Assembly: GCA_003856375.1 (NCBI GenBank)
Contig: CP034120.1
Location: 3,343,501 to 3,407,500, forward strand
Reading direction: 5' to 3'
DNA: 64,000 bases
Origin: Glaciecola amylolytica
GTDB taxonomy: Bacteria > Bacteroidota > Bacteroidia > Flavobacteriales_D > Crocinitomicaceae
In this document: one piece after another, positions 31,942-35,012 of the stretch
How positions within the stretch are numbered: the first letter of the stretch is position 1
How the letters are laid out: every line of letters begins with the position of its first letter
Notes under the pieces: generated by a model
Databases searched by the model: none
What the model saw: the letters and a program-made list of their open reading frames with translations, nothing else
Told to the model about the DNA's origin: nothing
Made by a program: the position numbers and the translations under genes

Positions 31942-32857
31942 CGCTCATCTTTTTAGCCACACGCAGCTTCGCGCTTCGTGCACGCGAATTCTGTTGAATC
32001 TCTTCTTCTGTTGGTAAAATCGGCTTGCGATTCACCTCTTCAAAAGGCTTCAATACTTTCCCGAAAAAGTCTTTCTCAATCGAACCATCCAGATTTCCGC
32101 GTTTCATCAGGTTTTTTACCAAACGATCCTCCAGAGAATGATACGACATCACCACCAAACGTCCGTCCGGCTTCAGCACTTCTGCCGTTTGAAGCAGAAA
32201 CTTCTCCAACACATCCATTTCCTGATTCACTTCGATACGAAGCGCCTGAAATACCTGTGCAAAGAATTTATGATCTTTAAACTTCGGAGCAACCGGCATC
32301 AAAGCCCCCATCAACTCACCGGTTGTTTTGATTTTTGATTTATTGCGTGCCTTCACCAATTCAACAGCCGTCTTAAACGGGTGATCCAATTCGCCGTATT
32401 TCCGGAAAATTGCAGCCAACTGTTCTTCATCGTAAGTCTGAACAATTTTTGCAGCCGTGAAATCTCCCGACTGATTCATACGCATATCCAAAGCCTCGTT
32501 GGAACGAATGGAAAATCCTCTTTTCGCATCATCAAACTGATGAGACGAAACACCCAGATCCGCCAGAATTCCATCAACAGCAGGAATACCAAGAACACGT
32601 AAATGATTTCTGAGAAAAGCAAAGTTGGCAGCCACAAAATGGAAATTCGGAGCTTCCCATGCATTTGCACGAGCATCCGGATCCTGATCAAACACGATCA
32701 GCTGGCCTTTTGGAGAAAGTTTTTCGAAAATTGCACGCGAGTGACCGCCACCGCCAAAGGTAACATCTACGTAAATCCCATCCGGATTAATCGCCAATCC
32801 ATCAAGACACTCCTGTAACATGACAGGCACGTGGTATGCAGCATCGTTATTCGTCAT
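31931..32857 (-). CDS. rsmH: 16S rRNA (cytosine1402-N4)-methyltransferase
   Basis: Methylates N4 of C1402 in 16S rRNA; formerly MraW. 308 residues from MTNNDAAYHVPVML at 32857; ATGs at 32860 and 32872 are also in frame, all overlapping the end of mraZ. 'YHVPVMLQECLDGL' is the family start, 'VDVTFGGGGHSRAI' is the SAM-binding motif, and 'GRLVVMSYHSLEDRLVKN' is the conserved block near the C-terminus. It is the second gene of the dcw operon. Confidence 0.97.
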   Translation of the reverse strand: MTNNDAAYHVPVMLQECLDGLAINPDGIYVDVTFGGGGHSRAIFEKLSPKGQLIVFDQDPDARANAWEAPNFHFVAANFAFLRNHLRVLGIPAVDGILADLGVSSHQFDDAKRGFSIRSNEALDMRMNQSGDFTAAKIVQTYDEEQLAAIFRKYGELDHPFKTAVELVKARNKSKIKTTGELMGALMPVAPKFKDHKFFAQVFQALRIEVNQEMDVLEKFLLQTAEVLKPDGRLVVMSYHSLEDRLVKNLMKRGNLDGSIEKDFFGKVLKPFEEVNRKPILPTEEEIQQNSRARSAKLRVAKKMSDGK

Positions 32858-33308
32858 CATTCCCCAAATCACCCATTACTTCATCTGCCAAATCAGCAAA
32901 ATCAGCCATGTTTCCATCAATCAGTTGGAAATACTTGTCCTTGTCCCAGATCTCAATTCGATCGTTGTATGCGATCAGCATCACATCCTTATCCAAACCA
33001 ACACGCTCCATATGCATCACCGGAATCAATGCGCGACCCGCATTGTCCAGAGCAATTTGTTTTGCCCCCTGATGAAACAAGCGGTAAAACATTCGGTTTT
33101 GTGGTTTGAACAAGTTCAGTTTCGACAATTTTGCCGACAACTTTTCCCACTCATTCATCGGGTAAAGCGTCAAACAGTCTTCAAAACCTTTGTTCAACAT
33201 GAATTGTTCCTGAGCTTCCGGAGAAAGTTGCTTGCGTAGCCCTGCAGGGAAGAGGAATCGTCCTTTTCCATCCAGTTTTACTTCAAATTCTCCTACAAGT
33301 CCAGCCAT
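32847..33308 (-). CDS. mraZ: Transcriptional regulator MraZ
   Basis: A 153-residue double-SpoVT/AbrB-domain protein, usual length. The two repeats begin 'FEVKLDGKGRFLFPAGLRKQ' and 'QIALDNAGRALIPVMHMERV', carrying the Dxx-GR-x-x-x-P pattern. It forms a ring-shaped oligomer that binds direct repeats upstream of its own gene and controls the dcw operon. Three 10-bp repeats of that type lie 33-62 bases upstream of its start. Confidence 0.97.
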   Translation of the reverse strand: MAGLVGEFEVKLDGKGRFLFPAGLRKQLSPEAQEQFMLNKGFEDCLTLYPMNEWEKLSAKLSKLNLFKPQNRMFYRLFHQGAKQIALDNAGRALIPVMHMERVGLDKDVMLIAYNDRIEIWDKDKYFQLIDGNMADFADLADEVMGDLGNDDE

Positions 33309-33340: not shown

Positions 33341-33370
33341 CACCCACTTTTTACCACCAAATTACACTTT
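33341..33370 (-). promoter_or_regulatory. Predicted MraZ operator (three 10-bp direct repeats)
   Basis: On the minus strand three consecutive decamers read AAAGTGTAAT, TTGGTGGTAA and AAAGTGGGTG, that is TGKKN every 10 bp. This equals the TGGGN-N5 repeat architecture known for E. coli MraZ and the AAAGTG boxes known in mollicutes. It sits 33 bases before the mraZ ATG, where it can control transcription. Confidence 0.75.
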
Positions 33371-33460: not shown

Positions 33461-33480
33461 ATGGTGGTAAAAAGTGGTAA
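33461..33480 (+). promoter_or_regulatory. Second MraZ-like box in opposite orientation
   Basis: TGGTGGTAAAAAGTGG here on the plus strand repeats exactly the core of the operator at 33341-33370 on the minus strand, giving two copies facing away from each other about 110 bases apart. Two TGGTA units keep the 10-bp period (33465 and 33475). Confidence 0.55.
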
Positions 33481-33952
33481 CAAATGAATAATTGTGGAAA
33501 AATTGTTTTTGAGAGATGAAATGATGCAGAAACAAAAAAGAGTCCAAACATTAAATCAAACATCTGAAAAACAAATGATTAAATTCAATTAATTGCCATT
33601 CAAACAATTCTTTAACATGAAGATCGAAAAAAGCAGAACGGTCTATAAATGACAAAAAGAACTGAAACAATTTCATCACATATTTCATGATCTTAATGAA
33701 TGACAATTACAAAATGATTCGGGTTAAAAAGCACTTTCATTTTAGCGGATATTTCTCAAAGGAAAACACGAATGCGAAGGCTCTGTTTTTACGGATCTGA
33801 AAACAAAAAAACGTCCATTATTCCCCCGCTGATTTATGAGAAATAAAAATCTTTCATCTCATCATGTGATAAATTGAACTATTTATCAAGTATTTAGTTG
33901 TAAAATCAACTAATTTCGGAAAACCACATATGCATTTTCAGTATTTATACGG
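33481..33952. other. AT-rich non-coding stretch between the MraZ boxes and the RNA promoter
   Basis: No ORF with coding character on either strand. The one notable element is a 7-bp inverted repeat (TTAGTTG and CAACTAA, 33894-33913) 40 bases before the -33 element of the downstream transcript, a possible operator. Confidence 0.6.
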
Positions 33953-33983
33953 TTGTATAATCCTTATGAAGGTTCTACTTTTG
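33953..33983 (+). promoter_or_regulatory. Bacteroidota consensus promoter with no ORF downstream
   Basis: TTG (33953-33955), 20-nt spacer, TACTTTTG (33976-33983): an exact match to the TTG/TAnnTTTG promoter class with ideal spacing. Expected transcription start is about 33989. No plausible plus-strand gene follows before the terminator at 34266-34300. Confidence 0.8.
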
Positions 33984-33988
33984 TAATA

Positions 33989-34300
33989 ACACTATTCACT
34001 ATATGAGTCAGAATTGAAAGCTGAATCGGACAGACTGTTGGTCAAGGATCAGGCAAAGCCGAAAGGATATCAGATGACTTAAAAATACGGAATACGACTG
34101 GGAAACTTGTTTATTTCCTGCAAAGGCGGTAACTTTCCCAGTCGATTCACTAGACTGCTTAATAAGAAACATAAAGATATTGAGCCGAGGGTGTTCCTGA
34201 AAAATCATCCAATACGTCTCGCAAAGCACTCTTACGCAAGAGTTAGTTAGGTTAAGTTGTAGTAGAAAAGCCCTTTGAATTAATGTTCAAAGGGCTTTTT
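33989..34300 (+). ncRNA. Candidate structured non-coding RNA (~310 nt), family unknown
   Basis: A transcript defined by a consensus promoter (start about 33989) and a perfect 14-bp terminator hairpin. The plus strand has no ORF with coding character. Nested helices can be drawn by eye: AGAC/GUCU (34032-34035 with 34216-34219), UUGG/CCAA (34038-34041 with 34209-34212), UCAGG/CCUGA (34049-34053 with 34196-34200), AUAUC/GAUAU (34067-34071 with 34176-34180) and a perfect 11-bp stem (34095-34105 with 34134-34144) capped by a small CCU-GCAA-AGG hairpin. A separate hairpin ACUCUU-ACGC-AAGAGU lies at 34228-34243. It lacks the signatures of RNase P RNA, tmRNA and SRP RNA. A minus-strand 73-residue frame over it looks non-coding. 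The exact 5' end is inferred. Confidence 0.6.
34266..34300 (+). terminator. Strong terminator ending the RNA; also downstream of truC
   Basis: AAAAGCCCTTTGAA and its exact reverse complement form a 14-bp stem with a 6-nt loop, followed by T5 on the plus strand. On the minus strand it follows truC by about 25 bases and reads into TTTTCT, so it may work both ways. Confidence 0.9.
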
Positions 34301-34325: not shown

Positions 34326-35012
34326 TCAGGTTCCATTTAAGAATACAGACCAGAAATCGGGCAAGCTTGCCTGAAGATCTATGAAATTTCCTGATATCGG
34401 TTGTTTAAACTTCAAACTGTATGCGTGCAGGAAAAGCTCGTGAATGCCCAGTTTCTCCTGAAAATAATGATTGTGATGCCGATTTCCGTATTTCGGATCA
34501 TTGATAATGGGATGGGAAATCTTGTTTGCATGAATCCGCAATTGATGCATTCTTCCGGTAACCGGAATCATTTCCACCAAACTGTAGCGCTGTTTTTCAT
34601 AAGGAGGAATAACATAATTCCGCTCGAACTGCTCCAAACAGTTGAAAATCGTTTTTGCTTCCTTGTAATTTCCCCGATCATTTTTTACCGGCGAATCAAT
34701 GATTCCTTCCGCAGCTACAAAACCTCTTAACAAAGCCAGGTATTTCTTTTCGATTTCGTTCTTGTCAAACAAACTTTGAAATTCCGCAACCCATTTCGAC
34801 TCTTTTGCGAATAGCAGCAACCCGGAAGTTTTACGATCCAGACGATGAACCGGACTTGCATTCTCCCAACCCTGAGCACGAATCAGATCCGTCAAAGATG
34901 TTTCTTCGATATTTCTTGCGTAATAGGAATGATGCACGATCAGATTCCCCGGCTTATTCACCACCAGACACTGTTCATCTTCAAATAATACGCTTATTGT
35001 TTCCTGACTCAA
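34326..35012 (-). CDS. truC: RluA-family tRNA pseudouridine synthase, TruC-like
   Basis: 228 residues. The catalytic motif 'PVHRLDRKTSG' places the nucleophile at Asp59. The segments 'LVVNKPGNLIVHHS', 'VTGRMHQLRIHANKISHPII' and 'HELFLHAYSL' match my memory of E. coli TruC, which modifies U65 of tRNA; an S4 domain is absent, as in TruC. The start must be TTG at 35012: an in-frame TAA lies 12 bases upstream and no ATG is available before the catalytic domain. A TAACTTTG -7 element sits 18 bases upstream (35031-35038). Confidence 0.85.
   Translation of the reverse strand: MSQETISVLFEDEQCLVVNKPGNLIVHHSYYARNIEETSLTDLIRAQGWENASPVHRLDRKTSGLLLFAKESKWVAEFQSLFDKNEIEKKYLALLRGFVAAEGIIDSPVKNDRGNYKEAKTIFNCLEQFERNYVIPPYEKQRYSLVEMIPVTGRMHQLRIHANKISHPIINDPKYGNRHHNHYFQEKLGIHELFLHAYSLKFKQPISGNFIDLQASLPDFWSVFLNGT

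Follow-up and report, generated by a model that had tools for sequence, protein, structure and literature searches.

A predicted structured RNA gene beside mraZ with a conserved 3' domain, probably a member of an undescribed Fluviicola small RNA family

Results

Genes and signals at the locus

The window, by which we mean the whole stretch of 64,000 nucleotides that was analysed (contig CP034120.1), carries on its plus strand a predicted structured RNA gene of about 314 nt (33987-34300, the start being placed from the promoter), referred to as the A-type RNA, with homologues in 8 relatives and with covariation. As had been described, the unit is divergent from mraZ, which lies on the minus strand (32847-33308; NCBIfam TIGR00242, 120.9 bits, over the cut-off). 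On its other side it converges with a minus-strand gene for an RluA-family pseudouridine synthase (34326-35012), which is TruC-like: the best NCBIfam model is TruC with 179.6 bits, below its cut-off of 328, and Pfam PF00849 is over its cut-off. The RNA promoter and the mraZ start are about 650 bp apart, and this spacer is largely unconserved. Upstream of mraZ, two copies of GGTGGTAAAAAGTGG stand in opposite orientation (33343-33358 and 33463-33478), about 115 bp apart, and both stretches are conserved in relatives. We take these copies to resemble the operator repeats of MraZ, and the pair suggests a second operator upstream of mraZ.

Bacteroidota promoters have a consensus of the TTG-N20-TAnnTTTG type, and the textbook promoter of the preliminary description is found at its place on the plus strand (33953-33983), with TTG at 33953-33955, 20 nt, and TACTTTTG at 33976-33983. 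The TTG is present in 8 of 9 aligned regions, with ATG in L044, and the TAnnTTTG box in 8 of 9, with TACTTTCG in L036. Directly 5' of the TTG, the −33 box, is an upstream element, AAAACCACATNTNCATTTTCAGTATTTATACGG (33920-33952, plus strand), a candidate for a transcription factor site or for an UP-like element, over which the 9 aligned upstream regions are nearly identical. A 29-nt pattern, comprising part of the element and the TTG, has a single match in the own genome when up to 3 mismatches are allowed. Judged from this conserved sequence, the element before the −33 box is probably the site of a regulator. Near the predicted transcript start of the A-type RNA, CACTATTC is conserved as well.

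The unit ends in a Rho-independent terminator (34265-34300, plus strand) of 16 pairs, within which sits the perfect 14-bp core noted earlier, and 5 of its pairs have changes on both sides in relatives; for the region, one terminator was observed against 0.5 (sd 0.8) in shuffles. The sequence features of an independently transcribed sRNA, an own promoter and a Rho-independent terminator around a non-coding body, are present. The longest sense frame in the unit has 47 aa and a TTG start, and no sense frame of at least 20 aa was found to be kept across the 9 A-type RNAs, in agreement with the earlier remark that the unit holds no credible ORF.

Homologues of the unit in relatives

Among 59 related genomes searched at the DNA level, 8 contain a homologue of the entire unit, which makes 9 sequences when the window is counted; these 8 are among the 13 other genomes of the genus. 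All 8 homologues lie beside mraZ and/or a truC-like gene: six are flanked by both, L035 by mraZ and engB, and L038 by the truC-like gene alone, the mraZ of this genome (G008) being on another contig. Of the eighteen stretches fetched around the matches, the alignments exclude four: L047, L048 and L049, whose 31-nt matches fall inside an open frame running the full length of the stretch, and L050, which matches the terminator only.

In the interval alignment (7 intervals, L038 and L035 not included), identity to the window is 0.5-1.0 in the mraZ-side region, drops to 0.1-0.5 over the next ~400 bases (spacer 33506-33910), rises to 0.87-0.98 in the element at 33911-33955, and is 0.2-0.9 in the RNA body and 0.88-1.0 in the 3' block. 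The conservation and structure of the unit exceed those of neutral spacer. With an unconserved spacer, a conserved upstream element and the covariation given below, the unit is more than chance, and from sequence comparison it looks like a real, conserved and folded non-coding RNA gene.

Fold and covariation of the A-type RNA

With the terminator, the fold energy of the window RNA is better than that of 100/100 shuffles (z = −4.0). Without the terminator it is moderately unusual (z = −2.1, 4/150 shuffles equally good), so that the window sequence alone is suggestive, not convincing. For the 8 homologues without terminator, z is −2.3 to −4.8 in 7 and −1.2 in L035.

The consensus fold was derived from 8 A-type sequences, several of them close relatives (alignment A4; L035, whose shorter 5' part was misaligned by MAFFT, was left out of A4 and of both covariation counts). 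It comprises a closing helix, a branched 5' domain, a long central hairpin, a variable hairpin P2, an ACGC-loop hairpin and the terminator, all on the plus strand. This structure is larger than the five nested helices drawn earlier at 34032-34219, since the predicted closing helix joins the 5' end to the 3' tail. Conservation is highest at the 3' end (34229-34264), not in the central helices.

The 5' strand of the predicted closing helix P0 (33991-33999) pairs with 34256-34263; it is 100% paired, and as 6 of its 7 pairs never vary, it has no covariation support. In the 5' domain (34004-34081), the helix 34004-34010/34075-34081 encloses a stem-loop (34021-34066), with 84-92% of cells paired and two pairs changed on both sides, one in each of two helices. 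The long central hairpin (34089-34149) is 94% paired, with 3 pairs changed on both sides, and contains the perfect 11-bp stem CGACUGGGAAA/UUUCCCAGUCG that had been pointed out before (CGACTGGGAAA at 34095-34105 with TTTCCCAGTCG at 34134-34144). It is followed by an AAGAUAU linker and the variable P2 hairpin with its GAG...CUC base (34174-34222; 91% paired, 5 pairs changed on both sides). The separate ACUCUU-ACGC-AAGAGU hairpin, also present as described, lies at 34228-34243.

Over A4, 93.1% of 653 cells are paired and double-sided changes occur in 15 pairs, where the shuffles have 6.6 (sd 1.9); the covariation score is 0.182 against 0.141 and was reached by 0/500 shuffles. Slid versions of the structure gave 1 to 4 such pairs; as the structure was derived from the same sequences, it is favoured over this control. 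When the terminator is left out, 93.3% of 541 cells are paired, with 10 double-sided pairs against 4.7 (sd 1.4), 0/500 shuffles, and 1 to 2 in the slid versions. The double-sided pairs are distributed as 3 in the central hairpin, 5 in P2, 5 in the terminator and 2 in the 5' helices. Further pair types are not above the shuffles (142/500 with the terminator, 162/500 without it). The ACGC hairpin is invariant and the closing helix nearly so, hence the support for these two comes from conservation only. The check proposed with the preliminary description, an alignment of the interval in relatives with a covariation count, has thus found the unit kept in 8 relatives with double-sided pairs above the shuffles.

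A shared 3' domain in paralogues at other loci

The 3' domain (34229-34264, plus strand) consists of the hairpin CUCUU-ACGC-AAGAG and a single-stranded tail, UURGUUAGGUUAAGUUGUAGUA, and is common to three kinds of loci, A, B and C. Of the 15 aligned RNAs, 12 have exactly the same 36-nt block and 3 deviate from it at one position each. Six paralogues in four genomes carry this block (L039, L040, L042, L043, L045 and L046); they are 173-200 nt long with inferred ends, shorter than the A-type, and have other promoters. The four B-type RNAs (L039, L040, L042 and L043) lie between an OmpA-family gene and a gene with ABC domains in Pfam, which we take to be uvrA. Upstream they have the palindrome CCCTTG(C/T)(A/G)AGGGT, in the form ATACCCTTGCAAGGGTAT in L039 and L042; as it is unlike the A-type upstream element, the B-type RNAs may have a different regulator. 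The one C-type RNA stands between prfB and gcvH, and one further paralogue adjoins a pentapeptide-repeat HTH gene.

A hairpin is predicted between an AAGAUA-like linker and the 36-nt block in 15/15 RNAs, a count made without shuffle control, and the folds of the B-type and C-type RNAs without their terminators are not clearly more stable than those of shuffles (z 0.6 to −1.6). The same 3' domain recurs across loci behind differing 5' domains, which points to a family of sRNAs that have this domain in common and vary in their 5' part. As the covariance model detects a single copy of the 3' domain in the own genome, the term family rests on the relatives.

The sequence AUGACUU (34074-34080, plus strand), kept in 8/9 A-type and 2/4 B-type RNAs, could pair with AAGUUGU of the tail (34254-34260) as an alternative to the closing helix. 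When pairing between the 3' tail and the 5' part was compared with shuffles, no sequence was clearly better (lowest 8/100, in L040), with AUGACUU recurring as the partner. A switch between this pairing and the closing helix is possible, at a level not above chance.

Range across genomes

Of 240 genomes of the family, 9 have matches to the covariance model of the 3' domain, 15 in total, and every one of these genomes belongs to the window's genus (9/14). No match was found in the 226 other genomes of the family, in a search that scored 18 candidates per genome under stricter filters and could miss diverged copies. In a collection of 84,980 species, the exact tail pattern occurs in 12 stretches, 8 from Fluviicola and 4 from Flavobacteriales MAGs (UBA5869, UBA7666) of the same genus. 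On a tree of the mraZ region from 13 genomes (without G010, whose mraZ was missed by the motif), the 9 carriers form one group with a support of 100/100. One genome, G003, is a draft of 83% completeness. With its filters off, the model was also run on two further loci and on the mraZ locus of each of the five non-carriers, and gave one match only, with E = 9.9. An origin in a mobile element was considered and rejected: neither the 50,697 phage records nor the 72,556 plasmid records contain a match, and the tail pattern is absent from viral contigs.

Comparison with known RNA families

At the gathering score, no Rfam family matches the window or the 14 relative loci, so that the search against the Rfam models, the other check that had been proposed, leaves the novelty of the RNA intact. 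At E up to 10 there are 17 matches, all below their gathering scores and 13 overlapping the terminator, which were taken as chance. The earlier remark that the unit lacks the conserved cores of RNase P RNA, tmRNA and SRP RNA agrees with these searches: neither tmRNA nor SRP RNA has an Rfam match in the window, and the RNase P RNA of this genome (RF00010, 246.8 bits) is encoded elsewhere, at G000:C1:101273-101681, with no RF00010 match at the window unit. Likewise, neither 6S model (RF00013, RF01685) matches at the window locus, and nothing in the own genome matches 6S-Flavo. A weak RF00013 match lies on the minus strand, about 3.4 kb away from the gene for RNase P RNA (L112, G000:C1:97675-97853; 20.7 bits for a cut-off of 46.4). 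Given this weak candidate, the 6S RNA of the genus may be unrecognised. Among the papers found for Fluviicola small RNAs, the F. taffensis transcriptome and Crocinitomicaceae noncoding RNA, none is on such an RNA, judged by title.

Possible partners and targets

Hfq was not detected in the genome, which encodes two RRM_1 proteins, so RRM-type proteins are candidate partners. These two proteins (L116 and L117), read as 201 and 185 aa, have long C-terminal tails that are low-complexity, charged or Gly/Ser-rich; from their sequences they are candidate RNA chaperones.

A near-perfect partner of a 20-nt tail stretch, with at most 3 mismatches, was sought in 14 genomes. Among the 18 matches were the 15 sRNA loci themselves and three 3-mismatch matches, and the reversed control gave 38. 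Since there is no near-perfect partner beyond these three chance-like matches, any targeting would be by imperfect pairing, which is usual for sRNAs.

Discussion

The locus was proposed to hold a new structured RNA, and this proposal is borne out by a conserved promoter and terminator, covariation, the lack of a conserved ORF, the absence of an Rfam family at the gathering score and an RNase P RNA gene elsewhere in the genome. From its sequence and that of its relatives, it is probably part of an undescribed Fluviicola sRNA family, found so far in one genus. As to its function, we favour, with some reserve, a trans-acting, independently transcribed sRNA that would be the long A-type member of this family and whose shared tail would bind a protein and/or pair with mRNAs. 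All copies would work through the shared 3' domain, as the binding site of a single RNA-binding protein, for which the RRM-type proteins are candidates, and/or as an exposed seed for imperfect pairing with several mRNAs. Stability, targets or conditions would be set for each copy by its 5' domain and its separate promoter.

The preliminary description had offered two roles, a regulator of the division cluster or a housekeeping RNA, and neither fits well with the relatives. An RNA that regulates mraZ and the division cluster in cis, by pairing with the mraZ start or through divergent transcription, would agree with the position of the A-type RNA beside mraZ in 7/8 relatives and with a predicted duplex between tail and mraZ start of −13.9 kcal/mol, which is tied fourth among the 47 genes of the window. 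However, the mraZ start region is the same in five genomes of the genus in which no RNA was detected there, and in these non-carriers the duplex amounts to −12.1 to −14.4, compared with −13.9 in 8/9 carriers and −10.8 in the ninth. It was also equalled by 40/500 shuffled seeds; the long spacer, mostly unconserved, separates the promoter from mraZ; in G008 the two genes are on different contigs; and paralogues with the same tail are found elsewhere, beside unrelated genes. As the tail pairs equally well in genomes that lack the RNA and some shuffled seeds match it, mraZ as a target is unsupported and control of the division cluster is not claimed. We regard such regulation as improbable, and the mraZ neighbourhood is most likely just the address of the RNA. 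The size of about 300 nt and the multi-helix fold would suit an ancestral housekeeping RNA (RNase P, SRP, tmRNA or 6S) too diverged to be recognised. This reading is very improbable in our estimation: the genome has its own RNase P RNA, all Rfam matches are below their gathering scores, and the restriction of the RNA, in the genomes searched, to one group within the genus argues against a universal or ancestral housekeeping RNA. The tail can furthermore be read as ...SYARVS-stop, as if the unit were a small mRNA for a short peptide, and this frame is open for at least 20 aa upstream in 6/15 members (the window, L033, L034, L036, L041 and L045). It is not so in the other 9, the silent positions of the tail are as invariant as the rest, and L043 has a 1-nt deletion in the tail, which makes a peptide a highly improbable product.

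A protein-binding structural or titrating RNA, similar to 6S or CsrB, in which the tail would be a protein site and the RNA would control the polymerase or an RNA-binding protein, deserves more weight, and we still consider it rather unlikely. It would explain the near-invariance of the tail, which extends over 36 nt and takes in a hairpin, more than a seed requires, and it goes along with the branched fold, the predicted closing helix, the lack of a near-perfect partner for the 20-nt stretch in the 14 genomes and the lack of a clear 6S RNA in the genome. 6S RNA consists of one long hairpin that opens into a central bubble. The window RNA resembles it as a stand-alone structured RNA and differs in being branched and in having no 6S match at the locus; moreover, no copy was detected in five genomes of the genus, and the weak 6S candidate lies elsewhere, near the RNase P RNA gene. 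That RNA too is similar to ours in size and in having several helices, and is set apart by its own gene. On a bolder reading, also rather unlikely, these RNAs would form a clade-specific 3'-handle RNP system of Fluviicola in place of Hfq, in which several RNAs with differing 5' domains and promoters present one 36-nt handle to a dedicated RNA-binding protein, perhaps of the RRM type.

The trans-acting sRNA that we favour has a possible counterpart in Bacteroides, where the RRM protein RbpB is described as binding FopS, a paralogous sRNA family of 14 members with conserved sequence, which represses SusC-like transporters (PMC11697453). By analogy with FopS and RbpB, the invariant tail is taken as the common working part and the 5' domains as the specialisers. 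FopS/GibS of Bacteroides thetaiotaomicron, as described there, likewise comprises paralogues of a Bacteroidota species at several loci with one conserved block and a Rho-independent terminator, and is bound by an RRM protein (PMC11697453); the present genome encodes two RRM proteins. The two differ, going by that description, in the place of the block: R1 of FopS is in a single-stranded 5' stretch, whereas the block in Fluviicola is a hairpin and tail at the 3' end, before the terminator and behind a long folded 5' part (PMC11697453). Rfp18 and other sRNAs of Flavobacterium psychrophilum are similar in being independently transcribed, structured and genus-conserved in Flavobacteriia (PMC9723704), and the present family differs in its exact tail, which was found only in the window's genus.

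The clear boundaries and the covariation make the RNA a candidate for a new Rfam family. To our knowledge, the regulatory RNAs of Bacteroidota are little known outside a few genera, and an RNA family present in several copies, whose 3' domain hardly varies, would offer a bait for the RNA-binding protein or the targets that are used instead of Hfq.
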